The position numbers and the translations under genes were made by a program. Shown here in pieces: positions 7,909 to 61,900 of a DNA stretch of 64,000 nucleotides. The notes beneath the pieces were generated by a model. That model was not told the DNA's origin. It made no database searches and saw nothing but the letters and a program-made list of their open reading frames with translations. The DNA is from Cladopsammia gracilis (Eukaryota; Cnidaria; Anthozoa; Scleractinia; Dendrophylliidae): positions 186,001-250,000 of the forward strand of contig JAJGOT010000603.1 in NCBI GenBank assembly GCA_022457155.1, written 5' to 3'. The first letter of the stretch is position 1. The number at the start of each line of letters is the position of its first letter.

Positions 7909-10900
7909 TTAGCACTCATTTTCCTTTCCATAAAAACATACAGTGAGGTCAAGTAAGGATAATGATCTGCATTTCGTCAAAAGTTTACCAAAGTCATATA
8001 TATGGCTTCCACTTGTAGCACATTGGTTGTTAACTTGCAATCTCAGTGTAGTTAACGAGTCACTACTTATCAAAATGTTGAACAGTTTGGATAACCAGTC
8101 TTTATTCACTTCTCTACATATGTTGACTGTCAGATTGAATGTAGTTAATGATGTGTTTTGCGCCAAATTTTCAATCAAATTGCGTGACCAGGCTTCATCC
8201 TTGTCCCCTTCACTGTAGTCATTCCACGTCAGTGTAAACGTGGTTAAAGATTTGTTTTTTGCCAAACCATCACCTAGATAACGCGCCCAGCTTCCATGTG
8301 GGACACCGTAGTTATTCACTGTCACAGTTAGAGAAGTTAAAGAAGTGTTTTCTGGCAAACCTGCATACAGTCCAAATGCCCAGTCGCTATTTGTACCATG
8401 CATGTAACTGTAGTTGTTAATTGTCAGAGTGAGTGTAATTAATGATGCGGTTCTCTTCAAACCATCAGCCAGGTCCTGATACCAGATATAGCAGGTACGA
8501 AAGTAATTGTCGATGGTCAGATAAAGGTTCATCAGTGAAGTGTTTTGCTTCAAGCACTTACATAGAACACCATTCCAAATTCCACCCATGTTGTCACTGT
8601 TTAAGGTAATAGACAGTGTAGTTAACGACTTGATTTTCACCAAGCTGTCCCTCAGGCCTTGTGCTGATAAATCCCTCACTTCATTGTGATCGTTTATTGC
8701 AAGACTGAGTGTAGTTAATGACACCATTTTGGCCAAGCTATCACCCAGTGTGCAGTCCCAACCTCCTTTCATGTTAGTGTAGTTGTTGATAGTGAGATTC
8801 AAAGCCGTTAATGATGTGCTTTGCAACATACTCTCTCCAAGACCTTCCCCCAAGTCGGCATTCATCATGTAGTTGTTCATTGTAAGATCAAGCGCAGTTA
8901 ATGATTTGTTTTCTGTCAAAACATCACCAAGATGGCTTGTCCAGTCTTTAGTTCCATCACTGTCATTGTTGATTGTAAGACTAAGCTTTTCCTTTCTGGT
9001 GTCCTTGACTTTAGAGAAGAGCTGTGACAATGATGCAAGATTATCGATAGAGACATCAAGAGCATTATACGATTCATAAGGATCTATAAGCACGCCACGC
9101 ACATTTTGGACAACAGTTAGATTGTTAACTGGTGTTCCTCGGAGAACAGTATGTCCCTCTGTGGTCAACTCGCCCCAGATATTGATAGTGAGAGAGGACA
9201 GCGTCTTGTGCGGTTTTAAGCATTTTGCTAAGCATTTTGCAACGCCATCAGTTAATCTTCCATGGACGTTTAAAGTCAGGCAAGACTGGAGGGAACGAAC
9301 CAAGACTTCACTTAAAGCTTCTGTTCCTTCACAAGTCAGCTCACCCCAAATGTTTACGGTTAAGTGCTGTTTTGGAACTAATGCTTTCTCGACCACAACT
9401 GGACAAAACGGAACTATGTGTCTACTTGCTACTTTGCTGCAGGTGTCTGGATGAAAAGCAAAAGTAACTGATGTCTTCTTTGTGAAACGAAGATTCTCCA
9501 CAATGCTCTGCCAGTTATCAGGAAGCTCTCCACGGACAAATACTCTCAAATCATCCAGAGAACGATTCTCTAGAATTCCTTTTTCTAGGAAATTTGCACC
9601 AGCAAAACTCAGTTTTCCGTTAACACGCAGCTCAAATGACTTCAAAACGGTTTGTTCTGCAAGTCCTTCACCAACAGCAGCTGCTACTGAATCTTGCATA
9701 TCTCCACAAATGATGAGAGAAAGAGAAGTTAAACATTTATTTGATGAAAGCTTTTCTAAAGCTTGTATTGTAGCAGCATCCATTGGGCTATACATCTCGA
9801 GGCCAACAGACGTCAACATGGTATCAGCACACAATCCAGTTTCAAGAGCATGGGCCCAAGCCTCGCCATGCTCTCTTTGCAATGCAAATGTTACTTTTGT
9901 TAAGGTCTTACTCGTCGCCAACCCTTTGCCAATGATAACAGCTGCGTCCAAAGAGATACTGCGATACACTTTGAGAGTAAACTCTGACAAACTCGTGCTT
10001 GCAGACAACCCTTTAAGTAGAGCTTCTGCTAGTATTGAAGTCATTTCGTGATTAAAAATGCTAACATTCGTAAGCTGTGAGCAACATTCTATACAAGCTA
10101 CGATAGTGTTCATTTGGTCCCTCCCATGGTCATGGTAAGGTGCAATGAGCTCAACAGGCTTCTGTAAACCTGAAAAACGTTTGCAAGCCTTCAAAACATG
10201 AACAAAGTCGTCAATGCTGATATATCGATCATCCTCGCTACAATAGTAGTCTACGTTGACGACCAGTGGAAAAGGTATAAAAGAACAAAGAGTAACTGCC
10301 ATTAGTTCAGCATTTCCACTTTCACAGAAGCCTTTAGTAAAGAAAGTTGCCGCCTCCCTACTGCAATAGTGCCAGTCCCAGTTACCTGAGCTCTTCAGCT
10401 CCTCACCAATCTCTGTGAAAAGAATATTTGCTTCCTGGCCTAGTACACCAGACACAAAAAGAAACACTTGTCGATATTTCCCCACCAAATCATCAAAGAT
10501 CAAATGCTCAAATAAATTTAATTGATTTGTTCGTAACTCGTGCGCAATATAGACGGCCGCCAGGTACTCTTGGAAGGTCTTGTGAAGAAAATAGTACTCA
10601 TGGTGTGGTGTTATCCTCTTCAGACTCTCTTCCTTATAAAGAAGACCGATTTCACGGGCTACCAAGTTTTTATTTTTGCTCTCACGTTCTGTCAATTCGT
10701 CTTCACGGAAACAATGACGATCATTCAGCAGGCATATCCAAGCTAGTTCTCCAAGTGCAAGAATGTCCTCTTGAAATTGCTTCCCTAAAGCTTTGTCGTC
10801 TTTATGGGTTTTCAGACGGTGTTTTGCACAATACCTTCTTAAGAGGCACTGGACAATGATTTGGTAAAGCTCAGAACGGGAAGATGGCAGTTTTCCCTCA

Positions 10901-11708
10901 TAGTCCTCATACACAACACAAAGGAGAAGTAAATTTAGCGGATTATTTCGAAGGGCATGCAATAAAGCGTTTTTTTGAATTTCTTTAATGAGCTCCTCTC
11001 CCTTTGATGAATGCCCTGGACTGATATTTGCAAAATGTTTTCTGACATACTCAAAAGCATCACTATCTGTGAATCCTTTGATTTTTAAACAAATGTCAAA
11101 AGGGAACTTTTTTCGCACCTCGATTCCTCGTTCTTGTCGGGTTGTGGCCAAAATACAGCAACATGGTAAAATTTTTCTGTCAAGCAGTTTATCCACATGA
11201 TGCTGTGAGTTTTGGGGAAGTTCATCCAAACCATCCAAAATAATTAAAATTCTCTTCTGGTTATCAGGGTTCTTGATATAGTCAAAAAACTTCTCCTTGG
11301 TCTTTTCATTGATATCTTCGGGCAGAAGTTGTTCATTGATGGCTTTCATTATATCTCCATCGATGTCTCTACATTTCAATAGCAGCACAAATTCCAATTT
11401 GTGCAAGGAAAACTTTGTTGCCCAGTCATAAGCAAGTTTAAGGCAAAACGTAGTTTTACCAATTCCTGGACTTCCCTCAACTAACATCATTCCATTCTCA
11501 CCTTTGTCAAGATCTTTGAAGATATTGTACACGTTGACCTCTTCACCTTCTACCTGAAGGACTGATTTTCGTCTTGAAACAATTTTCAATCTAGTGTAGA
11601 CATTTGCAAGGGGTAACTGGAGGGTGTTATCCCAAAACAGTGGTCTTAATTGAGAACGTCTCTTGTATTCATCTTCGAGCAATTTCATAATAACAGAGTT
11701 ATCCGAAC
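7909..11708 (-). CDS. Gene A exon 4: NACHT NTPase and LRR domain
   Basis: The exon begins after acceptor TTTTTTTCCCAACAG (11709-11710). The upstream in-frame ATG at 11730 lies in the intron's polypyrimidine tract and is not a start. NACHT features (whole-protein numbering): Walker A GSPGIGKTT at 528-536, Walker B LIILDGLDEL at 604-613, sensor-type ATTRQE at about 637-642, winged-helix-region NPLNLLLLC, and the NLR-typical FLHKTFQEYLAA at about 823-834. From about residue 1000 to the end run roughly 20 leucine-rich units, many of the form SLTTLxLTINNY, a ribonuclease-inhibitor-like class with an unusual Asn-Asn-Tyr turn. The stop is TAA at 7909-7911. The single 3.8-kb exon is intact, so the gene is probably functional. 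Confidence 0.9.
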
Positions 11709-14700
11709 CTGTTGGGAAAAAAAGACACACATATAAGAGAAGATTTATTCATAGATTTTTATGTACGTTTTTTTATTCAGTGAGCTGCACTTCAGACCTG
11801 CTTGATTAAGGTTAGGGTCGCATAATGAGATAAGGAAAATTAAACAGCCACTTTATTGGGTGACACAATTACTGAGTCTGGTGAGGCCAGTCTTTAACGT
11901 TGGGGCCCAAGATCTATAAAACAAGACTTCACATATTTGAATTTCGATATAAAAAATATCAACTACAGTTGAACCTCCAATCCTCAGGACCAGGAGAAGT
12001 GTCTCCTTAGGCGTCCCGTTAATGGAGGTTTTGCTGGTTTTGTTAATAATTAACCACCTCAACAAAAGTGCCTGGTTTCTTAACTTGGGATGTCACCATT
12101 TATTTTAGCAACTGTAAAATCCATGTTTGAGATAAATTATTGCAGCAGCAACCTTCGACTGTTAATTGTAGTTTGTTGTAATAGTCTTCTGTTTAGGTAA
12201 TTACAGTCAAACCTGTATTAAGCGGTCAATAGGAGAAATAGCCAACTGACGGCTTAATAGAGGTTGACTGTTCTAGGCGTTCATAGTGGGAAGGCGTGAA
12301 GGGGTGGTGCAAAGGAAAAGTCCGCACGCGAACGAGCAGGAAAACAAGGGAAGACTGGGGAGAGTAGTGCTTGAATGTTCGCACGCCCCTCTCCCCAGTC
12401 TCCTCTTTTTTTCCACTTGCATCAAAATTTTCCTTCTACTGTAGTCACTCCTTCGCACCCTCCCCACCCCTCCCTCTGAACGCCTGAAACAGACTACTGA
12501 CTGCTTGAAAGAGGTCTTCTAAAATTTGGATGTAACATGGTAAAAATTGAACTAGAATGTCAAATTGATCACTATAACTGTAATGCAAAATATGATAAAA
12601 AGAAATAAAGTAATTGCATGTTCAAGGAAGTTCATGCCTTGTCGTGAGGAAAGCGTCTTCACCATCACATTCAACAAGAAACAAACAAATCAGTTATGGT
12701 GGTCTGTGATTTAGGGCCGCAGAGCTTAATTTTGTGCAGCAAGTCACTCACTTCGCTGAGCGCCAATAAGAATTATTTGTTGCCATTAAACTAGGTCACC
12801 ATTAATTTTACTAGAGGTGAAATGCAATGAAATTAGCCAATTAGGAAGTCTAAATGGTGACCATATCTGCTTAATAGAGGTGACCGATTAATAGAGGTCA
12901 AGTTTACAGTAAGTGACAGTTTAATACAGGGTGACTGTTTAACGGAGGGACGCTTAATACAGGTAATCACCTCTCATCACTGGTATTTTATAACAAGATT
13001 TATTGCCATAATCATTTGTAATAAGAGCTCAAGCTTTGAATATTGTAATCACTTGTAGTTAGAGTACAATACAACATTGTCAATCTTCCTTGGCAGTCCC
13101 ATACTACATTCAACTATCCCTTTAAGGTGGCTCGCCTGGATTTTATGGGGGTGATACCCCACAAGTTTGAGCATTAACTATGACGCCATTAACAATGCTA
13201 TGGAAAAATGGCCACCACAGCTGTATTAGATCAAGACGGAAATTTGTTAAGACCAGTGTTATATTAACATCAGTTGCCATAGCAACGTAATGACACAATG
13301 TACCTCCTGTAGCCACTTCGATTATGAGAGCATTTTTGAAATTTTGGGGGATGAAGTTTTGGGAATTATAAATATAGTGAAAACATACTACATGTATCAA
13401 CATAATTGGCTGTTATCTAAACCAAACGATGAGCTTCGGGGATGCAGTTTCATCTCATAGTAGTTTGATTCACTTGTAAACACAAAATCTGCGTAAAAAT
13501 TGGTACAATGGAGGCCCTATTTTATTGCCTTACATGTTTTCGATGTCTTTGAAACTTGCAGACCATATAAACTGATGATTAATCTCAAGATTGTCAATTT
13601 TTAAAAAAGATTTGTCAAGCAGTTTCCAATTTATCATCACATTTGTAGGCATAGACCAAATTACATACAAAAATAGCAACAAGAGCAGCTGAACCCACGC
13701 TAATCAAATCCTTCTTTTTCGCAATCGGCCAAAGCACTCCCCCTCACTTTTTCACACACAATTTCAAATGGAATCAAACTACTATGAGATGAAACTGCAT
13801 TCCCAAAGTGTAACGTTTTCTTTAGATATTAGCCAATTATGTCGATAGAATGTTTTTCACTGTATTTATAATTCCCAAAACTTCATCCCCCAAAATTTCA
13901 AAAACGCTCTCATAGAATTTGTTCAATCTTTGCCATAATCTAGGCGGCTATGGGAGGTACAAGCTCCCTTAAATGATTGCCAAAAAACCTTCTGGTGCCC
14001 AGAAATACGATGGCAAGTAAAAATGGTCATGGCGTCATTATGTTGCTATGGCAACTTCAATGTTAATATAACAATGGTCTTAACAAATTTTCATCTTTAT
14101 CTAATACAGCTGTGGTGACCGTTTTTCCATAGCATTGTTAATGGCTTCGTAGATAATTATAATGCTTAAACTTGTGGGGTATCACCCCCAAAAAAATCCA
14201 GTCAAGCCACCTTAATAAAGTTTCAGATGTCATTTGGAACACCTAAACTCTGTCCCTGTCCCCTTAATAGGAGTGCTCCTTTAATAGAAATGATAATTAC
14301 AAAGATTATATGAGCGTTTGCTAGCCAGGACCAGAAGTGTCCCCTTAATGGCGAAGTCCCTTTAATAGTGGTGATAATTACCGGTACAAAGATTATATGA
14401 ATGTTTTGCTGGGACCAGGAAAAGTATCTGCTTAATGGAGATGTCCTAAATTAGAGGTGCCACTGTAGAAGGCGGCGGTTGACCAGTTGGATATTTTCAT
14501 AGGGTACATTAGAGTTGAATCCGGATCTGCCTTGTTACATTGTACAAATTCATCATGTGATGAAAACTTGAAAGCAAACCACAGGGTTACAAGTCAGCAA
14601 TCTAAAAAATAGGCCAGGACTTATGGCCTCCAATTCCAAGAAAAGCATATACAAATGGATGTATATACTTATACTTTTGAGCAACTAAATACATGTAGAT

Positions 14701-17700
14701 GACATCATAAATATATTGATTATTTTAAAAATTGATAATAAACCATAGAGTCAACCTGTAAGCCTAAACCCTCAAGTTGCTGTAAAATATATGTAAACTT
14801 GTAATTTTACCTTCATGGCAATCTGTTGACAGTCTTGGTTGCTTTGGAGCTGGAGTAATGCTTGGAGATGCTGCCCTTTTGCCCTTTTCTGAAGCATGTC
14901 TTTCTAATGAACCTGAAATAAATAAATCATTTTTCATAAAATGTTGTGTTTGTTTGTTTGATTGACTGTTTGTTTTTAGCTGGATATGAAACTCCCTCTA
15001 CGCTTGTCTTCTAAGGTTCTTGAATCACACAGGACTATCATTTCATTAAAGTCAATTTTTTTCCTCTTGGTTCTACCATGCTTGTCTGCAGTAGTCAATA
15101 TGGAAATATATATTAATTAGTTAACAATATAAAACACAACTACAATTTAATCTCCAATTCATGTAAGCAACACAAAATGTGACGCCTAAAAATGGGTGGA
15201 CAGAGGACAGGGGTCTAAACAACCATTCATAACACAACCTATAGTTATTTCAGTGCACAAAACTGCATCGCTAGTAGTGACAAAAATGCAGGGCTCGAGT
15301 TAGCCAACTAGCCAAAGTCTAGTAAAAATTCAGTTTTGGCTAGTGGAATTTTGCTTTCACTAGCCATTTGGGCTTGTAAAAATCATGAAGCACCAGACGA
15401 AACAAAACTGAAAATTACGTTCCTCTGTACATTGGTACAAATATGTATGTTGGTACATTGGTACATGTACTTTCATTAAGGCATCAGTCTTACTTTTTCA
15501 ACATTTCCTGTGCATTCATACAATTCCTATCTGCTCAATGTTTTTCCACATGTTCGTAAGGTGTTAGCCTTATCTTCTCAATGTTGTTTCATACATTCAT
15601 ACGTTAGTAAGATGTTAGTCTTATCTTCTCGATGTTTTCCTGTGCGTTAGGTCGTTCGTATCTTTTCGACCTTTTTCCGTAATAGTGTTCAGTTCTGTTC
15701 TGTTGACCTACTGAGGAGACTTAAGTCGGGCACAGTGCCTAACACACCACACATCGCATTCTGTCATGAGACAGGCCAGCTCCTGCTTTGTCTGTACTTC
15801 ATAATAGAGACATACAGTAGTAGTAAATTCGTAAGGTGTTAGTATAAGATTTATGAAGACAACTTAAACTATGATCAAACTGTGTTTCCAAGTTTTGGAG
15901 ATTTTTCCTAAATCGGTGTTATACATGTAATTTTCTCCCCCACCCCCTGTACAATCCCGGCTAGTGGAAATTTATTTTGGCTAGTAGTGAATTCAAACCT
16001 GTCACTAGCCACTAGGCTAGAAAGCTAAAAGGTTAGTCTCGAGCCCTGAAAATGCCCAAAAATTCTGACATGCAGTGGACAAACATTTTCCAGGATGATT
16101 ACCAATTTACCATGGGCTAACAACAGTCATGAGAAACTATGGTTATCTACCTTATGGCAAACAATTAAAAAATTTAGTTTATAATTCAATTACAGTGTTT
16201 GAGTAACCAATTCAAAAACAGTAAAACATGCTTTTCAATGCTTTATAATCTAATGAGGTATAGTTTTTTATTGAATCAGATTGCACACAGCTTCCAAACT
16301 ATAAGTATAACAAGAAACAGCAATGAAGTTTTGTTTTACTGGCTATTAACGTAACTTGTGCATGTACTGTACATGTACCTTTAATAGTTTAACCCTTTAA
16401 CTCCCAAGATTGCCAAAGATAAAAATTGTTATAAAATTTCAAATTCATTTTGTATTAAATATTGAAAAACAAATGGTACCATGCAAGAGTACTGCTGAAG
16501 AGGTTTCAATTGAATGTTTCCATTACTGACCCTCTGAGTGAAAGGGTTAAGTGTACCCAAACTACAACATCTTAAACTACACACTTTGTGTGATAATTTT
16601 CACAACCTCTCCTCTCAAAATGTGACATGTGTGTGACATGACAAATAGAATGAAAGTGTCAAAAATACTTGCTGATCCAAACTTAAAACAAATTGGTGGG
16701 CAGATATTCCAATAAACAAATAAAAAGTTTCAAAGCAGATGGCAACAATGTGTACTTCTTTGAAGCAACAGAAAAAGAAGTCTGTGGAAACTCACTTTTT
16801 AAATAATTCATGTACCGGTAGTTGCATCAAAAGATAACTTCATGTACATTGTATTACTTACCCACTTGAGTGATATTCAGCATCCTTTCTACAAGACTCT
16901 CACACTGTTGCTGCCAACTGTACTTCTTTGCATATGCTCTGCAAAGTTCTTTGGACTCGTCGAGTCGTAATTCCCTGTCTTTCTGACGAACAGATCTGAT
17001 TGCCTTGGCCCACTCCTTAGGATCTTCAGATTCCACTACACAGTTTGAACCATATGGAACTTTCTTCAAAGCTTCTCCAAGACCAGAGTTTCCACTAACC
17101 AGCACAGGCAGACCAGCAGATAAAGCTTCAAGGGCAGCCAGCCCAAAGCCCTCAGTTCTTGATGGCATTACAGCAAGATCCACCTCACAAAACAATTCAG
17201 CTAGCTGCTCCCTCCTTTCTTTGAAACAACGCACCTTGAGTTGACTGCGATCAATACCTTGCTGGAGTAATATTTCTTTTACTTTCTCCTCTTCTCCACT
17301 CAGTGCACCAACAAACACAAGTTTGTAGGTCATGTCTTTCAACTCAGCAATTGCTTGGGCAGCAATATCATAGCCCTTTAGCTGAAAGTCTTCACTATCA
17401 CCACGCCCAAAAACTAAAACACTAAAAGTTCCTATTTCTTTAGTGGCCTGCTTGACATCAGCAAACTCAGAGAAAATGCCCGGGGTGAGATTGAGAACAT
17501 CTTGATCCTTTCCACATGAACGGAGGTAACCCGAGAAAGCTTCAGCCAACTTGGGTCCAACTGCTACAACTTGATCAGCTAATTTACAGAGTTTTACTTC
17601 TACCTCATGCTTTTTCTCTCCTTTGGAAATGGTGTCTGTATAGCTTTTGTACATTCCAAGTTCTTCTGGTGCTGTATGGACGACCTGAATCCACTTGCAG

Positions 17701-19400
17701 TTATGGTGACGCTTTATGTGTGGTACTTGTCGACCAAGTGGTAGCCCATGTCCTATCACACAGTCCATGACATGATGTTTGGGAACGGAGGCCAACCAGT
17801 CAACTGGGTCATAACCTGGCATTTCTTCTGCTTCAAAAAGATGGACATTGTGGCTTGCAGCAACTCTTTTATCCTCTTCACTGCACTGAGGAAGATACAC
17901 ACTGACTTCCACATTGGGATGTTTTGCCAACTGAATGGCCAGCTCTCGATTGATGGTTGACAATCCTCCCTTTGTGGATTTCCATTCACTGCTTAACAAA
18001 GTAACTCTCAATTTCCTGCTGGAAGTGGAACTTGAACCATTTTCTAGGTCTTCCTGTGATGTAGAGGCTGTGCTAGGAAAGGATGAATCCTAAAACAAGA
18101 GGATGGTAAATTTAAATTTAAATTTACTAAAAGGCTGCACAAAAAGATGTTAACGTGGCTAAATCTAATTTGGGTAAACTTTAAACCTTGAGTCCGAGTC
18201 AATGCAGTCAGTCAGGCTTCCATCTATAGTGTACCTGATGTGCTGGGTTAAAGCCGTCGTGATAAAAAAAACCTTACACTTAGGCAACAAAATGCAACAA
18301 CAGTTGTAAAAAAAAATGACACCATGCAAAGCCACTGACATCCCCCATCATCTGGAACAGTGAGGGATAAATCAGGAAGCTTGGGAGCATTTCTATTTTG
18401 CCAACACATCCCACCTTTCTGCAATGGTTGCAAAAATTCCTGACTTACAAAAACATAAATGACACTACAATATTGTATCTTTAGGTCAGTACCATGCCTG
18501 TGCTTTATCAAAATCATGTGCTCAGGAATCAGTATGGCAGTCGCAGACTTTGGACATGTCTTTATTTATCTGACACTTCTATTCAATATTGTTCAATATT
18601 GGGAACATATGGGATGGTGGTGAAACAACAAAATGCTCAACTGTCTGCCCTGGGGTAGAATTGAGATGCAGTCTCCCTTAGATCTTCATTAGGGGATAAT
18701 AATTCTCACTCCGGAAATAGATTTCATGCACTTATAGTTTTTCTGTTAACTTCTATTGGCAAGTAAGTCACAAATATGAAATTAGATCTGCTTTATAAAA
18801 ATTTTCTGCTATAAACTTTCCGCGGCCCATACTGTCTTAGAAATTCAGGCACAAGATTGTGAATGTTGACAAAACTACAGCTACATGTATTCACTGTGGA
18901 CAAAACAGTTCACTTGAAACCTTCAAATTCACTAGCTATAAGCAGTGACCCTGTATAATTATTAAGTATAATTAAACCGAGGATACAAAGTTTATCCATT
19001 TTGGGCACTTATGGGCAACATGCGATTTGACCCAAATTCAGGGGAAAAAATCTCAAAAGTGGTTCGTACTCACAGGCTTTCCTGCAATGCCTGACACTCT
19101 GAATAACAGACCTTAGAGACTACTTAATGTGCACAGTGATTGGACAATGTTGGACCATGCCACTGACTTAAATATACTAAACACATAGTAACTATTTTGA
19201 TAAACAAAATGGGACAGGATACAAATAATTGTTGTGGTGCAATTTTATCCTTGGTGCAAAATTGTTTTTCCTTTGTTTTTGGCTATGGTTATGTATGATA
19301 ATGAGTTTTAAACAAAGGAAAAACAAATTTGCACCAAGGATAAAATTGCACCACAACATAGTACATCAAGTTCATATGGTACCTTTGTTGGCCTGGACAT
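7909..19400 (-). CDS. Gene A: glycosyltransferase-NACHT-LRR receptor (whole gene, 4 exons)
   Basis: Model on the minus strand: 19400-19383 (ATG exon, 18 nt), 18089-16862 (1228 nt), 14912-14811 (102 nt), 11708-7909 (3800 nt to TAA). The sum is 5148 nt, exactly 1715 codons plus stop, with every junction in phase (0, 1, 1) and no internal stop. Domain order: short Ser/Thr-rich leader, GT4-type glycosyltransferase (about residues 33-410), 34-residue basic/Pro linker, NACHT NTPase (about 450-1000), LRR domain to the C-terminus. No signal peptide or membrane segment is seen, so it should be intracellular. NOD-like receptors use the NACHT domain for nucleotide-dependent oligomerisation and the LRRs for sensing. 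Here the glycosyltransferase takes the effector position. Combinations of NACHT with glycosyltransferase group 1 have, as I recall, been reported in Acropora. The exact ligand and sugar donor are unknown. Confidence 0.8.
12268..12492. mobile_element. MITE with CTGTTCTAGGCGTTCA termini
   Basis: The left end CTGTTCTAGGCGTTCA is mirrored by TGAACGCCTGAAACAG. The interior holds AAGGCGTGAAGGGGTG and a matching inverse CCTTCGCACCCTCCCC. It is the same family as 29249-29483 in the spacer. Non-coding, about 225 bp. Confidence 0.75.
13126..14211. mobile_element. Foldback element with TTAA target duplication
   Basis: GGTGGCTCGCCTGGATTTT at the left is mirrored by AATCCAGTCAAGCCACC at the right, bounded by TTAA at 13122-13125 and 14212-14215. 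The inverted arms extend about 300 bp or more, including CAGCTGTATTAGATC / ATCTAATACAGCTGTGG and CATAGTAGTTTGATTC / GAATCAAACTACTATG. A TTAA duplication is typical of piggyBac- or Kolobok-type cut-and-paste elements. No transposase is present. Confidence 0.8.
14811..14912 (-). CDS. Gene A exon 3: phase 1-1 linker exon
   Basis: Flanked by TATTTCAG and GTAAAATT, this 102-nt exon encodes a basic, Pro/Ser-rich segment beginning GSLERHASEKGKRAASP and ending RLSTDCHEG. Being phase 1 at both ends, it can be skipped or multiplied without changing frame. Three related exons sit at the same place in gene B (56971-56870, 54982-54836, 53425-53324), which confirms that it is real. Likely role: flexible spacer between the glycosyltransferase and NACHT domains; the EKGKR...KQPR clusters could also act as a nuclear-import signal (inference). 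Confidence 0.75.
14913..15288. other. Gene A intron 2, 3' part
   Basis: Simple intron sequence, homologous to 56972-57430 in gene B. I looked for extra copies of the linker exon here and found none. Confidence 0.5.
15289..16048. mobile_element. CAGGGCTCGAG-ended transposon, 6-bp target duplication, gene A only
   Basis: Ends CAGGGCTCGAG / CTCGAGCCCTG are flanked by direct repeats AAAATG (15283-15288 and 16049-16054). Terminal regions carry the inverted phrase TTAGCCAACTAGCC / CACTAGCCACTAGGCTAG. At the matching place in gene B (near 57425) the flanking DNA is continuous, an empty site. A 131-bp relative with the same ends lies at 59048-59179. No ORF of note; non-autonomous. Confidence 0.85.
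16055..16861. other. Gene A intron 2, 5' part
   Basis: AT-rich intron sequence starting at the GTAAGTAAT donor. It matches 59900-60392 in gene B in places (e.g. ATAGAATGAAAGTGTCAAAAATAC). No further exon or element seen. Confidence 0.5.
16862..18089 (-). CDS. Gene A exon 2: GT4-type glycosyltransferase domain
   Basis: It encodes 409 codons plus one base. It opens with a Ser/Thr-rich stretch (DSSFPSTASTSQEDLENG) and then LRVTLLSSEW, the first beta strand of a GT-B fold. KGGLSTINREL is the glycine-rich donor-side loop; IGHGLPLG and QVVHTAPEE mark the N-terminal Rossmann half; FSVLVFGRGD starts the C-terminal half. The GT4 signature EX7E is present as EGFGLAALE (about residues 319-327), followed by GLPVLVSGNSGLGEAL. 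All the residues one would expect for a retaining transferase look intact. Length (about 380 residues) is a full-size GT4 domain. The donor site is GTG G|GTAAGTAAT, phase 1. An in-frame TTG at 18009-18011 is not a start; the exon clearly extends to the acceptor at 18090-18091. Confidence 0.85.
18090..19230. other. Gene A intron 1
   Basis: Homologous along its length to gene B intron 1 (61621-62690 and 63180-63449). The 89-codon minus-strand ORF at 18248-18517 is not kept open in copy B and is not annotated. No mobile element recognised. Confidence 0.5.
19231..19356. mobile_element. 126-bp palindromic MITE in gene A intron 1
   Basis: GTTGTGGTGCAATTTTATCC is mirrored by GGATAAAATTGCACCACAAC, with CTTTGTTTTTGG / TTTAAACAAAGG inside. 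It begins 26 bp inside intron 1, next to the exon 1 donor. The same insertion is in gene B at 63450-63571, so it predates the duplication. A longer relative is at 24755-25235. Confidence 0.85.
19383..19400 (-). CDS. Gene A exon 1: six-codon start exon
   Basis: ATG TCC AGG CCA ACA AAG is followed by GTACCA as donor and encodes MSRPTK. It joins in phase 0 to the acceptor TTGTTTTAG before 18089, the only phase that leaves exon 2 open. The paralogue has the same exon (MSRLTK) with donor GTAACA at 63615-63598, 215 bp from equivalent flanking landmarks. The context is GTGATGT, with G at -3. I found no alternative conserved ATG in frame upstream of exon 2 in either copy. A longer 5' coding part cannot be excluded without transcript data. 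Confidence 0.6.
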
Positions 19401-35097: not shown

Positions 35098-38000
35098 CTA
35101 ATTTTCCTTACCATAAAAACTCACAGTAAGGTCAAGTAAGGATAATGATCTGAATTCTTCCAAAAGTCTACTAAAGTCATAAACGCGGCTTTCACTTGTA
35201 GCACATTGGTTGTTAACTTGCAATCTCAGTGTAGTTAACGGGAACCGTTTCATCAAAATGCGGCAAAGGACTGGTAACCAGTCTTCAGTAGCTTCACTGC
35301 AGCTGTTAACTGTCAGATTGACTGTAGTTAGTGATGTATTTACTATCACATAATCAGACATACGTAAACCAAGGCGCTTTGCACGGCAATTGCTGTAGTC
35401 ATTCACTGTCAGGGTGAGTGTAGTTATAGAGGTGTTTGTCACCAAACCCCGAATTAGCGCGGCTACCAGGTCATCATCATAGCTCGAGACCTGATAATCA
35501 TTCACTGTCACAGTTAGTGTAGTTAATGACTCGTTTTTTGACAAACCTTTAATGAAAAATAATAAACACCAGTTGTCCAGATCAATGCTGTTAATTGTCA
35601 GAGTTAGTTCATTTAATGACGTAGCCGTCGCCAAACTGTCTGTGTACCGACCAAAGCTGAAGCCAGCCCTCTCGCCGTTGACTGTAAGACAGAGTTTTTT
35701 CAGTGAAATGTTTTGCTCCAAACAGTTTTGCACAACTTTACTCCAGAATCCATTTATATCTCCATCATTGAATAAAAAAGGAAGTGTATATAATAACTTG
35801 ATTTGAATCAAGCTGTCACTCCGACTTTTTCCTCCGAATCCACTCTCTTCACTATGATTGTTTATTGCAAGACTGAGTGTAGTTAATGATGACAATTTGG
35901 CCAAGCTGTCACCCAGGATGCAGTCCCAGCCTTCCGTCATGTTATTGTAGTTGTTGATTGTCAGACTAAAAGACGTCAGTGAAGTGCTTCGCAACAAATT
36001 CTCGCCAAGGCCTTTCCCCGCGTCTGCAATCATCATGTAGTTGGTGATTGTAAGATCAAGGGCGGTCAGTGATGTGTTTTCTGCCAAAGCATCCCCTAGA
36101 TGGTGTGTCCAGCCTTTAATTGCACCACTTTGGTTGTTGATTGTAAGACTGAGTCTTTCCTTCCTGGTGTTCTTGACTTTAGAGAAGAGCGATGCCAATG
36201 ATGCAGGACTGTGGATTGAGACATCAAGGACATTGTTCGATTCATCAGGAACTACACGCACGTCATGCACCTTTATCCGAACAGTTAGGTTGCTGTTATC
36301 TGATAGTCCCTGAAGAACAGTACTTCCCTCTGTGGTCATCTCGCCCCAAATATTGATCGTCAAGAAGGACAGTGTCTTGTGTGGTTTAAGGCATTTTGCA
36401 AAGCAATCAGCAACGCCAAAAGTTAATTTTCCATGGAAGTTTAAAGTCAGACTTGACAGAAGAGAAAGTACCGAAACTTCACAAAGAGCTCCTGCTCCTT
36501 CACAACTCAGCTCACCCCAAAGGTTTACAGTCAAGTGCTGTTTTGTAACCAATCCTTTCTCGACAACAGCAGGACGAAAATGAGCTATCTGATTGTCTGC
36601 CACTTCGACCCAGGTGTTTGGATGAAAAGTACAGGTAACTAGTGCTTTCTTTGTCAAACGAAGATTTTCCACAGCCGACTGCCAGTTGCCAGGGAGCTCT
36701 CCATGGACAAACACTCTCAAGTCATTCAAAGAACTATTTTCTAGCAGACCTTTTTCTAGGAAATTGGCACCAGAGAAACTCAGCTTTCCATCAAGACGTA
36801 GATCGAGAGATTTTAAGACGGTCTGTCCTGCTAGTGCTTTCCCGAGAGCATCAGCTAATGACTCCTGCATATCTCCATAAATGACGAGAGACAGAGATTT
36901 CAATGATTTGTTTGATAAAATCCTTACTAAGGCCCATATAGCAGTATCACTCATTGGGCTATAAAAGTCGACTCCAATAGTTGTCAGTGGGGTATCAGCA
37001 GACAATTCTCTTTCAAAAGCATTGAAGCAAGCCTCGCCATATTTTCCAGGCAATGATAATGTTACTTTTGTTAAGGTCTGGTGTGCAGCCAATTCATTGC
37101 CAATTAGAGCAGCCGCATCACAAGGAAAAGGGTCATCCACTTTAAGAGAAAACTCTGACAAATTCCTGCTTGCAGACAAACCTTTTACTAGACGATTTGC
37201 ATATGATAATTCCAGCTGACAGATAGAAAGGCCAACAGTCCTCAGCTGCGAGCAAGATTCCATAACATCTACTACAACTCCAATCTGATAGTCCACAAAG
37301 TCTGAATATTCATTACGTATGATTAAAGCAACAGGTTTCTGTACATTTGAAAAGCTTTTGCAAGCATTCAAAACTGGAATAAAGCCGTGACAATCGGTTT
37401 TATCATTGTCATCATTCTCAATTGTTAGTGGGAAAGGTATAAAAGAACAAAGAGTAGCTGCCATTAGTTCAGCATTTCCACTTTCAGTGAAGTTTTCTGT
37501 AAAGAAGTATGCCTCCTCCTCACTGCATTTGCACCAGTCCCAGTCACCTGAGATCTTAAGCTTCTTACCAATCTGTGCGAATAGAATACTTGCTTCCTCG
37601 CCCAGTATGCCGGACACAAAAAGAAACACTTGTCCATATTTTCCTACCAAATCATCAAAGCTTAAACGCTCAAATAAACTTAACTGGTTTCTTCGTAACT
37701 TGTGGGCAACATATGACGCTGCCAGGTACTCTTGGAAGGTCTTGTGAAGAAAGTAGTACTCATGTTGTGGCTGTAATCTCTTCAGACTTTCCTCCTTGTA
37801 AAGAAGGCCTATTTCACGAGCTAACAGGTGTTTATTTCTCCTTTCAAGTTCTGCCAATTCGGCTTCACGGAAACCATGACGATCATTCCGCAGGCACATC
37901 CAAGCCAGCTCTCCAAGTGCAAGGATATCCTCTTCAAATTGCTCCTCTAAAGCCTTGTTGTCTTCATGGGCCTCCAGATTACACTTTGCACAAAATCGTC

Positions 38001-38915
38001 TCAAAAGGCACTGGACAATGACTTGGTAAAGCTCAGTACGGGAAGTTGGAAGTTTTCCCTCATAGTCCTCATAGACAACACAAAGGAGCAGTAAATTTAG
38101 CGGATTATTTCGAAGGGCACGCAATAAAGCGTTTTTCTTAATTTCTTTAATGAGTCCTTCTGCCTTTGATAAATGCTCTGAACCAACATTTTCAAAATGT
38201 TTCCTGACATACACAAAAGAATCCTTATCTCTGAATCCTTCAATCTTTAAATGAATGTCAAAAATGAACTTTTTCCGCACCTCAATTCCTCGTTCTTGTC
38301 GGGATGTGGCCAGGACATGGCAGCATGGTAAAATTTTTCTGAAAAGCAGTTTATCCACATGATGCTGTGATCTTTGGGGAAGTTCATCCAAACCATCCAA
38401 AATAATTAAAATTCTCTTCTGGTTATCAGGGTCCTTGATGAAGTCAAATAGCTTCTCCCTGGTCTTGTCCTTGATATCTTCGGGGAGAAGTTGTTCATTG
38501 ATTGCTTCCATTATACCTCCATCGATGTCTCGGCATTTCAGTAGCAGCACAAATTCCAGTCTGTGTGGGGAAAACTTTGTTGCCCAGTCATTAGCAAGTT
38601 TAAGGCAAAACGTAGTTTTACCGATTCCTGGACTTCCCTCAACTATCATCATTACACCCTCACATTTGCCAAGAACCTCAAAGATGCTGTCCGCGTTCAC
38701 CTCATTATCTTTTTCAAGAGCCTCGAAGATGTCGAACTTGTTTACCTTATCACCTTTTACTTTGATGCCCGCTTTTCGTCTTGAAACAATTTTTAATCTT
38801 GTGTAGACATGTTCAAGGGGTAACTGGATGGTGTTATCCCAAAGAAGCGGCCTCAACCGAGCACGTCTATTGTATTCAGCTTTGAGCAACTTCACAATTA
38901 CAGCGTTATCCGTAC
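35098..38915 (-). CDS. Gene B last exon: NACHT NTPase and LRR domain
   Basis: The exon starts after acceptor CTCCATTTTCCAG (38916-38917); the in-frame ATG at 38934 is intronic. NACHT landmarks (whole-protein numbering): Walker A GSPGIGKTT at about 626-634, Walker B LIILDGLDEL at about 702-711, LATSRQE sensor region, FLHKTFQEYLAA. It carries a small insertion before Walker A relative to gene A: IFEALEKDNEVNADS is followed by a second IFEVLGK, an apparent local duplication. The LRR half has SLTALDLTITNY / SLTTLSLAINNH-type units. By eye it is much more diverged from gene A than the glycosyltransferase exon is, most of all in the C-terminal third. It ends VSFYGKEN then TAA, three residues shorter than A. 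Confidence 0.9.
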
Positions 38916-52900: not shown

Positions 52901-55900
52901 AACTCGGAACTGACTTGTTACATTGTACAAATCCATCTTGTGACATTACAGTTGAACTCTGAACTTCCTTGTTACATTGTACAAATCCATCTTGTGACAT
53001 TACAGTTGAACTCGGAACTGACTTGTTACATTGTACAAATCCATCTTGTGAGGAGGACTTGAAACCAAACCAGAGGATTACAGGTCAGCACTCTAACAAA
53101 TAGGCCAGGCCTTATGGCCTCCAATTCCAAGAAAAGCACATACAAATAGTCTGACTATATATATATATATATACTTATACTTTTAAGCAACTAAATAGAT
53201 GTATGCTAAATTGATTAAAAACCACTTCTTCTTCCAGAGTTAAACATAAAAATAACTTCATAGTGAACCTCCAAGCCTAAACTCTCAAGTTACTCTAAAA
53301 TATATGAAAATTTGTAATTTTACCTTCATGGCAACCTGTTGACAGTCTTGGTTGCTTTTGAGCTGGAGTAACGCTTGGAGATGCTGCCCTTTTGCCCTTT
53401 TCTGAAGCATGTTTTTCCCATGAATCTGAAATAAACAAATAATATTTCATAATATTTTTTGTTTGTTTGATTGACTGTTTGTTTGTTCTCAGCCAGATGT
53501 AAAACTCCCTCGCCGCTTGCCTTTTAAGGTTCTTTTATCACACAGGACCAGCATTTTATTAAAGTCAATATTACGAGTGATCGATGAGAGGAATGGTAGT
53601 TCACAGACTAAACAGAACACAGGGTTGTTGGAAAAGCAACAAGAAGATTTATTCCAAATGAACGTAGCCTTCACAGCTGTAAAACTCTACAAGAAATCAC
53701 CACTCTGAACTTGTGAAAAACTAGCTAAACCTAAGCTAACACTCGCCTGCTTATATACCTTCTTTTCGGTATAAAATTCTAGAACCTTCTAAATAGACTA
53801 ATTATAGTAGTATTACAAAATATACTGTAACAATCTACAGCAGCTTATGCAAGGTCCTTCAAAATTCGTAAACAAAGAATATTCAAGAAACTTCTAGAAT
53901 GTCACGCAAGTCATGCAAGGCACTTTTTCGTAACAGGCAATTTGTATTTTTTTCCTTGTTTCTACAGTGCTCATATGCAGTACATGTATATAGTCAATAA
54001 TGAAATATAAAATTAATTAACAACAAACATAACTACAATTTAATCTCCCATACATGTTCCCTGAGACATGCTGTCAACATCAACTTTTATTTATTAATGT
54101 TTTGGCAAATTACAAATTTTCTACTGCCTGCAAATACTTGTACCATGGTGCTAATGGAGGTGAGCAATAAGAAAAAAGGAATTGTTTACAAAATTTCAAG
54201 AAACATTTGAACATTCTTATGCGAACAAGGAAATACAGTATACTAGTAATTATGAGAGTCATAGCCTTGAAACAGCTAGACCAACAGAGATGTAGGTCCC
54301 CGTACGTTGAAGCCCCATATGCGACTTTAGACATTGCAGGTACTGATGAGTTAGTTATGGAGTCATGTAAAACTGACTTTATGCACAAGTCTTTGATCTA
54401 CACTTTCTTCATTGCAAGTCCTGATGAGTGAGTGATGGAGTCATGTAAAACTGACTTTATGCACAAGTCTTTGAACTACACTTCCTTCAACATTCTCAAA
54501 TGCATTCATAATTCATCAAGTCTGAACAAAAAAAATCATAAGCGTGACAGTGGTTTGGAAACTTGATCTCAATCAGCATAGATATTTGCGATTTTATTCC
54601 TTCTTTTTCTCTGTATTTAATGATCAGTTTGAGAAGCTTTCTTACACACTCTAAAGAGTGTTTCATCAGGGATCCAAAGTCCTTCTGGCTGGGTAAAAAA
54701 AAACTAGACTACATCTCGCTTTTTTAACTAATTTCTCTTTGTTTTGAAATCTTGATGCAACACTCTTTCTTGTGTTTGATGTACAGAATTACTCCTCAAC
54801 CTTAACCTTAAAAAACAAAACAAAACAAGCTTTACCTTCACGGTCATCTGTCAGCCGTCTATTTAGAGCTGGAATAGCAGCAAATGAAGGAAATGGTCTT
54901 TTGCCTTTTCCTGAAGCCTGTCTTTTGCCTTTTCCTGAAGTCTGTCTTTTGATTTTTCCTGAAGCCTGTATCCCTGCTGGACCTATACCAATAAAAAAAT
55001 CATATTTTATAATTTTTTTATCTACTTGTGTGTGATGTCTGCCTTCTCAGGTTAAAAACCCAAAAGGAAACTCTTCTTTAAAGTCAATTAACATTTTCCT
55101 TTAGCCAGCACCTAGATCTCACCTAAACCAAATTATTTGCCTTTAAGATAATTTAACTGCAAAGCCATAAAATTAAGGACATTTTGCTTCAGATCATTGC
55201 AAGCCTTGCTGGACATATTGATTCAAAGATTCTTTAAGATTATCATCTTCGATCCAGGTTGCCTCACGATTATCCACCATATTGGGTCCCATTTTGGCTA
55301 ATAAACTGCGCGCAGGCGCAGTGCTCAATCGAAGTATTTAAGCACGTGTAGCATGATGGTAGTGGCAGCCCTCGGCCACGGCGAAATTCACTTTCACTTG
55401 CTTTTCGAATTTCGTTTGGAATTGATTTTTTATTTCACTTTTGGCTGTATTTCCATCTTAGTTTTATCTTGAAGTGAAATGTGGTTTTACTTTTACATTC
55501 TATGTACTTTTAAATCAATTTCACTTTACTTTGATTTTTGATATCAGTTTTCTTTTATTTCTCACTTCAACTTATTCTTATTGTATAAAAATATTGGAAT
55601 TTTTTATTGGCAGTTCTCGGCCACCTGCATGGTTTTGCATTCTCTTTTAAAAATGCATTCAATTTTAATCTTAATCGAGTTTGACTTTGATTTGCACTTT
55701 GCTTTTTGTTTTACATTTCATCGTATTTGCATTTGATTTTAATTTTATTTGCTTAAAAAAAAAATGCCCAGAAAACCCAGTGGCAGTCCTCCGCCACCAC
55801 ACAGGTCAAATTTACTTTCAGGTTATACTTATTTTAACCTGGGTCATTGTTTAAACCAAGGTTAGCATTTTCATTGCACATTTGCATAGTTTAAGTTTTG

Positions 55901-58900
55901 GCCGAGGAGAGGCTGTGTAATAACATAAAAAATTATAGAAGTTAAGTGGAAATTGCATTGTTCTTCTGCATTGTATAGTGGTGAAGGCAGTGGGCTACAG
56001 ATCTGAAAGGTGAGAGTTCAGCTCCAAGGTAAATACAAAATAAAATTTCTTTATTTTGTTATTACAAAGCATGTTTGTCAGGGGGTCATGAGGTAAAGTG
56101 GGTGGGAGGGTGGGTTGAGCAACAAGAAGTTGGTGGGGAGGGGGAGGGTTAGTGTTAGAATAAATTTTGCCATTATTTGTCCTTTTGTTTTTTTTTCCAA
56201 CATATTGTTTTTAGACCCCCCCCCCCAAAAAAAAAAAAAAAATGCCCCTGTTTTTTAACCACACCCCATACAGAAAATCCCTTTTCAGATAGAAAAAAAT
56301 ATCCTAGGTTAATAAAACTTGACCCAGGTTAAAATAAATCTATCCTGAAAGTAAATTTGACCTGTAACATACCAACTAGTAGGATACATTAGAGTTGAAC
56401 TCGAAAATGCCTTGTTGCATTGTACAAATCCACCTTGTGATTTGAGAGGAGGACTTGAAACCAGACTGTAGAATTACATGTCAGCACTCTAACTAATAGG
56501 CCAGGCCACATGGCCTCCAATTCCAAGAAAAGCATGCAAATACTTTGAAACCTGTATTAAGCAGACACCCTTGGGACCCTCGTTAGTGTCCACTTAATAG
56601 AGGGGTCTGTTGAATACAGGTTTGTTTTCCAGTAAATGTGGGAAGAAAATTTAGGGACTCAAGCAATTGGTGTCTGCTAAATAGAGGGTGTCCCCTTCAG
56701 TCTGTTTACCGGTAATACAGGTTTCATTGTAGATGTAGATGCAACTACATAGATATGTTAAATTGATCAAAAAACAGTTTCTCATTCCAGAGCTCAACAT
56801 AAAAATAAAACTTTACAGCGAACTTACAGGCCAAAACCAAGTTGCTTTAAAAATGTAAACAAGTTTTACCTTCATGACCATCTGTAGACAGTGTTGGTTG
56901 CTTTGGAGCTGGAGTAATGCTTGGAGATGCTGCCCTTTTGCCCTCTTCTGATGCGTGTCTTTCTAATGAACCTGAAATAAATAAATAAATCACATTTCAT
57001 AATTTTTGTTTCTTTGATTGGCTGTTTGTTTGTTTTTAGCCAGATACGAAACTCCCTCAATGCTTGCCCTCTAAGGTTCTTTAATCACACAGGACCAGCA
57101 TTTGACCAGCAATTTGTTTTTTCCCGTTGGTGGACTTTATTTTCTTTTAGCAACCTGACAGATCACCGATTTTACAATGTATCCACCATTCATTAATAAA
57201 TTATGCCTATCTGCAGTTGGCATTAATTCATGGAAATAAATAATTAATTAATAATAAACATATTAAACTATAGTTTTATCTTCCAAAAGCAACCATGGAA
57301 ATGTCAAGCCAGCTTCACATAGGTGAACACTTAAAGGAGGTCAGATCATAGGGGTCTAAACTTCAAATCATAACAACCTGTTGTAATTTAAGTACACAAT
57401 ACTCACTATAGTAGTGATAAAAAATAAAAAATAAAAATCTCTGATATGCAATGGCCAAAAATTTTCCAGGATGATTGCCAGTTTACCATGGGTTACAACA
57501 GAAATAAGAAAGTGTTATTATCTAGCTCACAACAAACAATTAACAAATAAAGAACAAGGCCAAACCATGGTAGAGACCAGGGCTGGAATCCCCAACCTTA
57601 ACATCTGAATTCCAAAGGGGATTTATCACTACACCACAGCGTCTCGATATTGTACAGTACACTACTACTATAATATACTGAGTACTACCACACTGAAACA
57701 AGGATGACTCACACGGTGACCTTTGGGAAAAATGAAAGGACAAGTTTTCATCATATCAGGGTTGTACTACATTGCAATAATTTTACATTAGTAGTGTCTC
57801 AGAATATGTGCAACTGTTTAAAGAGGTTAAAAACAATAGAACAATTCAAACCAACAGCATTGCAAGTGTTCAGTCACTGAAGAGAGGTGCTCACTTACAA
57901 GAGGTTTTCAACTGACATAGCAGTGATATTGGGAAAATGTCTGAGATTGGTCGTTTAGAAGAGGTAATTGCACAGGGAAAATTGCAACCTCGTTCCCAGG
58001 GTCTCTCATCTTCCCGCCCTCGGAACGAGAGAGGAGAGACCCTGGTCAACTCTGGTCACGTGCGTCCCAAAATCTGGGATGTAACAAATAAAAGATTTGA
58101 GGGAAGGGCGGCAAAGTGTGAAATTTGTTCGCTCAAGCAGGCATTGCAAATCAAAACAAATCCAAAAAGCGTTTGGCGGCTTGCGATAAAAACATGTCCA
58201 CATCGACTGGTTTTGAGAGTGCAAGTAGTTGCTTTAGGATCTGTAAATTAATGGTTGTGGAATTGTCACGGCACTTGAAGATTTGTCTCAGTATTAAAAG
58301 CTAAATTTGGACTCGCTACACAATGAGTGAATGCAGTCCAATTTTATTACTGGACGCCGCCGCTAAGCCGTCGTTCTCGGCAGAAAATGCTTTCGATTTA
58401 TGGCATTGTTCCGAACGGGGATGAGTTATCACTACATACTATTTAGCGGGCGATCTTCAAGCTTCATTTGACCGGCACATTAAAATGTCGCCGTCTGTTC
58501 TCGAACGATGGCGAAGTGGAAAAATATTTTGACATGCAGATCGACTCTACACTTTTATAACAGGAAACGAGGTAGAGAAGATAATGATAGCTTTTATTCT
58601 TCGTAGGTGAGGCATGTTTTTTGTTTTCAACATTTACCAGTTCCAGTCGTTTGAATGTCTACACAAGATTTTTACATTTCATTGTTTCCTTATACCCTTG
58701 TGAAATTATTGAACGATAACCATTTTAATCCTTGCGCATAATTCATTTTTTTGTTTGATTCATTTTGGATTGAACCATTTCCGGACATCAACCGACTCGC
58801 GCACAGCACAAGCCACTGAGAAAACGAGACAAAGTTACAAACACTGTCGACCCCTCCTTAGGAATATAATTGTCCAAGAGGCACGTGACCAGACTTGACC

Positions 58901-61900
58901 AGGGTCTCTCTTCTCTCGCTCCAGGGGGCGGGAAGATGACAGACCCTGGGAACGAGGTTGGGAAAATTGACATTGAATACTGTACTATATAAGAAACACA
59001 GATTCACCCAGTTCTTATGAGAAAACGTAATGACAAGAAGCAACAAACAGGGCTCAAGACTAACTTTTTTATTATTATTATTAATAGCCCAAATGGTATA
59101 GTGAAAGCAAAAATCCACTAGCCAAAACTGAATTTTTACTAGACTTTGCCTAGTAGACTCCTGTTAGTCTCGAGCCCTGAACCAAACAAGGAAACATCCT
59201 GTGGTCATCTTATGACTCACTTCAAACAATGAACGGGCAACCTAATCTCTCAGTAATAAGGTGTGAGGAATGTTAAAAATAAAGACAACTGGAAGTGGAC
59301 AAAGCACAATGACAGTGATTGAAACAAGTAAACTTGACCCAAAAACTGCTTCCCAAAGGTGTTAAATTAATTTTTGTGTCAGAAAACCCATATAGCAATT
59401 TATTTATTTATTATTTATTTATTTTATTTTACATTTGCCACATAGAATAAATATTACAAAAAGAAAAAGAAAAAATATTAATAAAATTGCAAATTTACAG
59501 AGCAGGAAGAGCTACAAAAGTAGTTCAAAATTAAATGTAATATTAAGTGACTTAACTTTGATATAGGTAGAGTGGCATGGAAGCCCAATGGAAGCTAAAA
59601 AGCTTGTAGAAATCGGGCTCCTCATATTTAATTAACACTTACATGCACAAGTGATTAACCATGATTTAAACCACTTACTAATGAAAATCTAATCAGCCAT
59701 TCATGGAAATTATCACAAAACAACGTTTATAGTGCAAAAGTGTAGCAATGGGGAGTGAGTGGTTGACGGAACACCAATTACTGCTCACACATTCCATTCT
59801 TGCAGATTCCTCTATCAACCGTCTTATGATCAAACTTGACTCATAATTTAATTAATTCATTTTACCATGTACAAACTTCCTAATGAGTAAATAATTATTT
59901 TTGGCTAAGAATTTAGAATGAAATTGAGAAATCTATAAAACAACATTTTTTAATCAGTAACAAAAATTCAAAAGTAAATTGCAGGAAATGGTACAATTTA
60001 CATAATTCCATGTGATGTGGAATCTCATCAGCTTAAAACATTTTAAAAGTAACATAGGAAAGGGCAAATAAAATTATTTAAACTTAAATCTAGGAAATGG
60101 TAAAGTAAGGTAAAATAAAGCAATGGTACATGTATCCTTTGTATGATAATTGTCATGTGCGTGACATGACATATAGAATCAAAGTGCCAAAAATACTTGC
60201 TAACCCATACATACTGGTAGACAAATTGGTGAGACATGTTCCAACAAACAGAAAAAAGTTTCAAAAGTGGGTGCCAGCAATGTGTGCTTCTTAATGAAGC
60301 TACACAAAATAGAAGTCTACGGAACTCCCTAAGTTAAATAATTCATAAAAGTTGAATAAAAAAAGGCAACTACTATACATTGTATTACTTACCCATTTGA
60401 GTGATATTCAGCATCCTTTCCACAAGACTCTCACACTGTTCCTGCCAGTTGTACTTCTTTGCATATGCTCCAAGAAGTTCTCTGGACTCTTCGAGTCGTA
60501 ACTCTCTGTCTTTCTTTCGAACATCTCTGATTGCCTTGGCCCACTCCTTAGGATCTTCTGATTCTACTACACAGTGTGAATCATATGGAACCTTCTTCAA
60601 AGCTTCGCCAAGACCAGAGTTTCCACTAACCAGCACAGGTAGACCAGCAGATAAAGCTTCAAGAGCAGCCAGCCCAAAGCCCTCAGTTCTTGATGGCATT
60701 ACAGCAAGATCCACTTCACAAAACAATTCAGCTAGCTGCTCCCTACTTTCTTTAAAACAACGCACCCTGAGTTGACTGCGATCAATGCCTTGCTGGAGTA
60801 ACACTTCTTTCACTTTCTCCTCTTCTCCACTCGGTGCACCAACAAACACAAGTTTGTAAGTAGTGTCTTTCAACTCAGTAATTGCTTGGGCAGCAATATC
60901 ATAGCCCTTTAGCTGAAAGTCTTCACTATCACCACGCCCAAAAACTAAAACGCTAAACGTTCCTATTTCTTTAGTGGCCTGCTTGACATTAGCAAACTCA
61001 GAGAAAATGCCCGGGGTGAGATTGAGAACATCTTGATCCTTTCCACATGAACGGAGGTAACCTGAGAAAGCTTCAGCCAACTTGGGTCCAACTGCTACAA
61101 CTTGATCAGCTAATTTACAGAGTTTTATTTCAGCCTGATGCTTTTTCTCACCTTTGGAAATGGTGTCTGCATAGCTTTTGTACATTCCAAGTTCTTCTGG
61201 TGCTGTATGAACGACTTGAATCCACTTGCAGTTATGGTGATGCTTTATGTGTGATACTTGTCGACCAAGTGGTAGCCCATGTCCTATCACACAATCCATA
61301 ACATGATGTTTGGGAACAGAGGCCAACCAGTCAACTGGGTCATAACCTGGCATTTCTTCTGCTTCAATAAGATGGACATTGTGTCTTGCAGCAACTCTTT
61401 TTTCCTCTTCACTGCACTGAGGGAGATAAACACTGACTTCCACATTGGGATGTTTTGCCAACTGAATGGCCAGCTCTCGGTTGATGGTTGACAATCCTCC
61501 CTTTGTGGATTTCCATTCACTGCTTAACAAAGTAACTCTCAATTTCCTGCTGGAAGTGGAACTTGAACCATTTTCTAGGTCTTCCTGTGATGTAGAGGCT
61601 GTGCTAGGAAAGGATGAATCCTAAAACAAGAGGATGGTAAATTTAAATTTACTAAAAGGCTGCACAATGAAAATGTTAATGTGGTTAAATTTAATTTGGG
61701 TAAACTCAACTTTGAGTCTGAGTCAATGCAGTCAGTCAGGCTTCCACCTATAGTGTACCTGATCTGCTGGGTTACCTCAGGGGCTTGATGCTAGTTTTCT
61801 GATTTGCATTGGAGGCGATCTTTATTTTATTTTCTCTTTATTTTAGCTGTCATTACATAAAATATTGAATTGTTTTGTGTATCACACGTGCACACTCACT

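Follow-up and report, generated by a model that had tools for sequence, protein, structure and literature searches.

Tandemly arrayed GT4-NACHT-LRR receptors of the coral Cladopsammia gracilis: a putatively active glycosyltransferase domain and a linker cassette resembling a nuclear localisation signal

Introduction

The closest described relatives of the receptors considered here are the NACHT-glycosyltransferase group 1 proteins of Acropora, which show the order glycos_transf_1 - NACHT - LRR and large tandem expansions in the consulted parts of three reports (PMC4083563, PMC12314368, PMC5013795). Shuffling of the N-terminal domains of coral NOD-like receptors (NLRs) has also been proposed already (PMC4083563). 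With respect to the enzyme domain, the consulted sections of an eLife 2021 paper (PMC8195603) describe the GT4 paralogues of Acropora digitifera, over 500 in number, as kin to the GT4s of bacterial conflict systems, record many GT4 proteins without NACHT as well as fusions to STAND NTPases, and propose lateral transfer and an effector role. Among vertebrate NLRs, NLRC5 is described, in the excerpt consulted, as carrying a bipartite nuclear localisation signal (NLS) upstream of its NACHT domain (PMC7922096). The GT4-NACHT-LRR architecture is known as a kind, and the consulted portions of the literature on these coral receptors report no function for any of them.

The present analysis concerns a window of 64,000 nucleotides (contig C1272, positions 186001-250000) in the C. 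gracilis genome, which comprises 877,814,584 bases in 1469 contigs. An earlier note on this DNA had mentioned NACHT-glycosyltransferase combinations from Acropora, which are indeed in print (in the parts consulted of PMC4083563, PMC12314368 and PMC5013795). The same note expressed surprise at a glycosyltransferase in the effector position; the architecture is real, while its novelty was overstated, since it has been in print since 2013-2014. What the present analysis adds is a cassette in the linker between the two halves of the protein, which may serve as an NLS-like lead.

Organisation of the receptor gene

The first copy of the gene lies on the minus strand and begins with the ATG at 19400. 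Exon 1 (19383..19400; MSRPTK, donor GTACCA) is followed by exon 2 (16862..18089), in which a Pfam match, alignment with MshA and residue conservation all identify a complete GT4 domain of the GT4-conflict type. Exon 3 (14811..14912) is a 34-codon linker of phase 1-1 containing KRAASPSITPAPKQPR, a weak NLS-like cassette, and exon 4 (7909..11708, stop codon included) encodes NACHT and leucine-rich repeats according to Pfam and profile matches. All introns are GT..AG, with phases 0, 1 and 1, and the spliced exons give 1715 residues without an internal stop, in the order GT4, linker, NACHT, LRR. The single in-frame protein from four exons put forward in the earlier note agrees with these results in coordinates, intron borders and phases alike.

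The short exon 1 is backed by the second copy of the gene in the window (copy 2), which has an identical ATG and donor site, and by MSR(L)-type starts in relatives. Comparison of 20 N-termini found MSRL starts in P0121, P0129, P0157, P0145 and P0189 and MSG, MST, MSS or MSM at the equivalent position in others; six lack the initial Met, at least five of these being named 'partial' by NCBI. No secretion signal is evident in the copy 1 protein when its sequence is read by eye. Head to head with exon 1, at a distance of ~310 bases, lies a DEAD-box helicase fragment (PF00270, E 7.4e-15; 19713-20303, plus strand).

In Pfam, the GT4-conflict family PF20706 matches copy 1 over positions 3-385 of 385 (E 5.3e-86, 289 bits), against weaker matches to the general glycosyltransferase models PF13692 (76 bits) and PF00534 (73 bits); the PF20706 cut-off was also exceeded in 14 of 14 control genomes, so that passing it is not diagnostic by itself. 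NACHT (PF05729) is matched over 3-166 of 167 positions (E 2.3e-24), and the columns of its P-loop (GSPGIGKTT) and Walker B motif (ILDGLDEL) are nearly invariant across 20 aligned sequences. For the last exon, no LRR family reached E<=0.1 in Pfam, and phmmer with the LRR part alone returned little. A NACHT-LRR profile of the 20 aligned sequences, in turn, matches the solved structures of NLRP6, NAIP, NLRP3, NLRC4 and NLRP2 through its NACHT part, and 5irl/5irm ('Uncharacterized protein', presumably rabbit NOD2; 5irl E 3e-13) through its LRR part. By sequence, copy 1 fits an NLR, with a NACHT domain bearing Walker A and B and with C-terminal leucine-rich repeats. The GT4 and NACHT motifs, described as intact at first sight of the sequence, are so, as seen from the full-length PF20706 match, the Walker columns and the retention of EX7E and Lys. 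A precomputed Pfam domain, PF27087, is recorded on many NACHT-LRR relatives; the Pfam run of this analysis did not return it for P0121 and P0150.

The tandem array and divergence between modules

Within the window, copy 2 repeats the exon order, strand and junction phases of copy 1. It consists of an exon 1 positioned by alignment (63598..63615, minus strand; MSRLTK), a GT4 exon (60393..61620, minus strand) whose protein is 93.4% identical to that of copy 1, and a NACHT-LRR exon (35098..38915, minus strand) with 62.8% protein identity and a stop two codons earlier. Two candidates exist for its linker exon, namely A (53324..53425, minus strand; KRAASPSVTPAQKQPR) and B (56870..56971, minus strand), the second basic half of the latter being degenerate (KQPT). 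Direct tandem repeat arrays occur in the window at 25576-26374, 49659-50315 and 52616-53063; the last two sit within copy 2, in the long intron that separates GT from NACHT, and that at 52616-53063 immediately adjoins linker exon A.

Both window copies belong to a same-strand tandem array on C1272 that comprises seven NACHT and six GT4 exons. The NACHT exons are located at 56692, 156560, 197026, 224188, 269468, 306351 and 369143, and the five GT4 exons listed at 67514, 164916, 202893, 246424 and 406508, all on the minus strand. The sixth GT4 exon (310003-310827) is cut by the edge of the sequence examined and has its exon 1 at 312490-312536. No GT4 was seen for the NACHT exon at 269468 in the sequence examined, outside which lay the stretch from 270 to 310 kb. 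The NACHT-LRR exon of a further copy (C1272:366053-369835) has one stop codon within the aligned stretch. Across the genome, at least 101 NACHT matches over the cut-off (101 of 318 candidates scored) and at least 60 GT4-conflict matches (60 of 186 candidates scored) were found. Seven NACHT matches in series with open frames of 1213-1338 aa, resembling the C1272 array, occur on the plus strand of another contig (G000:C286:150491-363606) and represent either another array or the other haplotype.

The modules of the two window copies have diverged to different extents. The NG86 dN/dS ratio between copies 1 and 2 is 0.26 (0.032/0.125) for GT4, 0.37 (0.124/0.338) for the NACHT part and 0.59 (0.303/0.511) for the LRR part, an order as for a conserved effector combined with a diversifying sensor; along the last exon, the ratio stayed at or below 0.77 in every 150-codon window (NG86). 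In the comparison with the C1272 copy at 406/369 kb, dS likewise amounts to 0.295 for GT4 and 0.473 for NACHT. Since dS is lower in GT4 than in NACHT, and intron 1 and exon 1 share 86-92% identity between copies, the 5' module (exon 1, intron 1, GT4) is either of more recent origin or more strongly homogenised than the receptor module, which is what separate exchange or conversion of the effector and receptor halves would produce.

Relatives and catalytic residues of the GT4 domain

Two protein searches yielded 240 listed proteins (the best 120 of 5818 and the best 120 of 580 matches), among which 177 have a GT4 match, 120 a NACHT match and 57 both. NCBI lists full-length coral proteins with the order GT4-NACHT-LRR, and GT precedes NACHT in all 57 of the two-domain proteins listed. 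These come from Acropora (21), Montipora (16), Porites (9), Oculina (7), Pocillopora (3) and Stylophora (1); they are largely gene predictions and, being related and including isoforms (for example, P0131, P0133 and P0134 of Oculina), are not independent. Among the matches listed, the closest to copy 1 is a Porites lutea protein with 59% identity over the whole length. The linkers of some other coral GT4-NLRs contain extra domains, such as a TRADD-like N domain (P0146, Montipora) and an OTU protease (P0157, Pocillopora).

Conservation of the EX7E acidic residues, whose loss in most orthologues would have spoken against the reading of the earlier note, is nearly complete. The first Glu is kept in 174 of the 177 listed GT4 domains (Asp in two, Gly in one) and the second in 176 (Gln in one), while Lys238 and His138 are each present in 177/177 and Arg229 in 160/177. 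Similarly, at 30 GT4 loci of the C. gracilis genome, the first Glu is found in 29 and the second Glu, Lys and His in all 30. A decayed enzyme was considered and finds no support, given this near-complete conservation of Glu and Lys in corals as well as in the genome itself. Because the first Glu is replaced in three of the 177 listed domains and in one copy of the genome, some GT4 copies may nonetheless be inactive. The genomic case, L049 (G000:C1294:256316-257425), is an otherwise intact GT4 exon with Lys in place of the first catalytic Glu and is possibly an inactive paralogue.

In MshA, residues K236, E316 and E324 along with His133 are stated to be responsible for substrate binding (PMC4506291, in the part consulted). 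In the HMMER alignment, K238, E313 and E321 of exon 2 align with MshA K236, E316 and E324, and His133 is unmatched: as read by eye, the invariant His138 is paired with MshA His130, and a Pro stands opposite position 133.

Kinship with bacterial conflict-system GT4s

The earlier note took the likeness to bacterial STAND defence proteins to be one of logic and not of homology. This proved wrong on account of the PF20706 assignment, the tree grouping, the bacterial fusions to STAND-type NTPases, Roc-COR or CATRA and the kinship set out in eLife 2021 (in the sections consulted), which together indicate that the coral GT4 domain is homologous to the GT4s of bacterial conflict systems. Scanning of genome contigs gave 33 loci, six of which code for an almost full-length PF20706. 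Beside GT4, these proteins contain nSTAND3, just over the cut-off (L001), LRR, Roc and COR (L002), helix-turn-helix, NB-ARC and TPR (L003), TPR-like repeats with only sub-threshold AAA/NB-ARC matches (L004), nothing further (L005) or CATRA-N and CATRA-C (L006). GT4 is C-terminal in all six and N-terminal in the coral proteins, a difference that counts against the mechanism proposed below.

In a 39-row tree, 23 coral and the six bacterial conflict GT4s form one group (support 100/99) apart from ten other bacterial GT4s, which were picked by motif and are less similar by choice; branches in this tree are long. Within it, the coral group is supported at 92/96 and the bacterial conflict group at 100/96. 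The tree covers 13 of the 30 loci of the C. gracilis genome and ten of the 12 'other' GT4 loci tried (out of 27), two having been dropped for a short or missing open frame. Apart from these, a plasmid search returned six rhizobial glycosyltransferases at ~26% identity.

The linker cassette

A bipartite NLS consists of two basic residues, a spacer of 10-12 residues and at least three basic residues among the next five. This strict form occurs in 43 of the 57 GT4-NACHT linkers, where 1.7/57 would be expected from segments of equal length in these proteins, and the loose pattern KR[PSAG]..K..R in 45 of 57 (expected 2.9). When spacers of 8-12 are allowed, the count is 44/57 linkers as compared with 7.2/57 in shuffled linkers. 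A chance origin of the motif is rejected by these differences (43/57 vs 1.7; 44/57 vs 7.2), with the reservation that the 57 proteins are related to one another. With the wider spacer, the motif also appears by chance in 9/57 of the GT4 domains, whose length exceeds that of most linkers. Examples of the cassette are GKRPLHPSDTPPSKKQR in Montipora, GKRPALAHLSSSPPGKKQR in Acropora, DKRPLSLFGTQPSKRLR in Oculina and DKRPSLRTDTDFPSKRIRR in Stylophora, and in six proteins the cassette is repeated, with two to four copies each. The short linker exon is a conserved cassette that looks like a bipartite NLS.

The cassette is not uniform across the family. The copy 1 linker KRAASPSITPAPKQPR matches only the loose pattern, as in Porites (KRPLSSSNIPAPKYPR), where the strict form is found in 3/9, at least partly through another basic stretch of the linker. 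In the copy at C1272:366-408 kb, a look through the 37 kb that separate GT from NACHT revealed no clear cassette. A limited search of the literature on coral NLRs and GT4s, in the parts consulted, found no description of this cassette.

Proposed mechanism and alternatives

The locus is best read as part of a tandem array of coral GT4-NACHT-LRR receptors in which glycosylation by an active GT4 would be gated by LRR and NACHT, possibly in the nucleus; a probability of roughly 0.5 is assigned to this reading. The leucine-rich repeats would sense an invader, a symbiont or a damage signal, upon which NACHT would switch and oligomerise. An NDP-sugar would then serve the clustered GT4 domains as donor for glycosylating a molecule of the invader or a protein of the host, which would thereby be blocked or tagged. 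With less weight, the linker cassette present in most family members may direct to the nucleus either the protein itself or an isoform that contains GT4. The fuller form of this idea, that coral GT4-NLRs are nuclear glycosylating receptors whose phase 1-1 linker exon supplies the NLS and couples sensing to glycosylation of a nuclear target, is tentative and rather doubtful; if it held, the target might be a host chromatin or transcription protein or a viral nucleic acid or protein, a suggestion as tentative as the nuclear reading that it includes.

A GT4 that binds an NDP-sugar or glycan merely as sensor or scaffold, with signalling through other partners and no enzymatic role, is unlikely, though it deserves consideration: the equivalent of MshA His133 was not found in the alignment, the first catalytic Glu is lost in a few copies, and the TRADD-like N and OTU domains in the linkers of P0146 and P0157 would provide a separate adaptor or enzyme. 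Mere binding would, however, not obviously need the Glu pair and Lys to be kept almost in full. A GT4 whose substrates are glycans of algal symbionts or other colony-mates, serving symbiont or self/non-self recognition instead of the killing of invaders, is more improbable still. It would suit the arrays and the lineage-specific expansion in reef corals, and the consulted literature raises a link between coral NLR expansion and symbiosis as a possibility. The GT4-NACHT-LRR proteins listed, however, include some from Oculina patagonica, a coral that can do with few symbionts or none, and a protein without an evident secretion signal should meet cytosolic or nuclear glycans and not those of the surface. 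Finally, that GT4 and NACHT-LRR are separate proteins made through alternative ends or splicing, the fused model being an artefact of gene prediction, is very unlikely, as against the ~22 kb that lie between GT and NACHT in copy 2 and the many GT4 proteins without NACHT (PMC8195603, sections consulted) stand the junction phases kept in both copies, the recurrence of the unit in the array and the 57 listed database proteins from six coral genera, largely predictions, that join both domains, all of which suggest a single mRNA.

The gated glycosyltransferase receptor proposed above would bring together an enzyme half that is near-invariant at its catalytic residues, a diverging sensor half and a linker cassette that points to a cell compartment, in receptors that corals hold in large numbers. 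If the domain does transfer sugar and the linker does bring its cargo to the nucleus, this would be a case of an animal receptor that delivers a glycosyltransferase effector of bacterial type.

Comparison with known systems

The Acropora glycos_transf_1-NACHT-LRR proteins share with this locus the tripartite architecture and the large tandem expansions, whereas the present copies come from a different coral species and have their closest listed database proteins in Porites (59% identity). The bacterial conflict GT4s (PF20706) have the homologous domain with EX7E, joined to modules that act as NTP-dependent switches; GT4 is C-terminal in the six bacterial proteins, while the coral GT4 is N-terminal with the LRR at the opposite end. 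In enzymes of the MshA/PimA type, EX7E and the donor-site Lys align with the coral domain, but the similarity is low (E about 4e-8), the donor-site His is unmatched and the coral GT4 is fused to a receptor. The vertebrate nuclear NLRs NLRC5 and CIITA combine NACHT and LRR with an NLS upstream of NACHT, and the coral cassette likewise stands before NACHT. In contrast to NLRC5, a receptor with an atypical CARD whose action is on transcription, the coral receptors carry a GT4 enzyme domain in front of the cassette, of which copy 1 has a weak form only.
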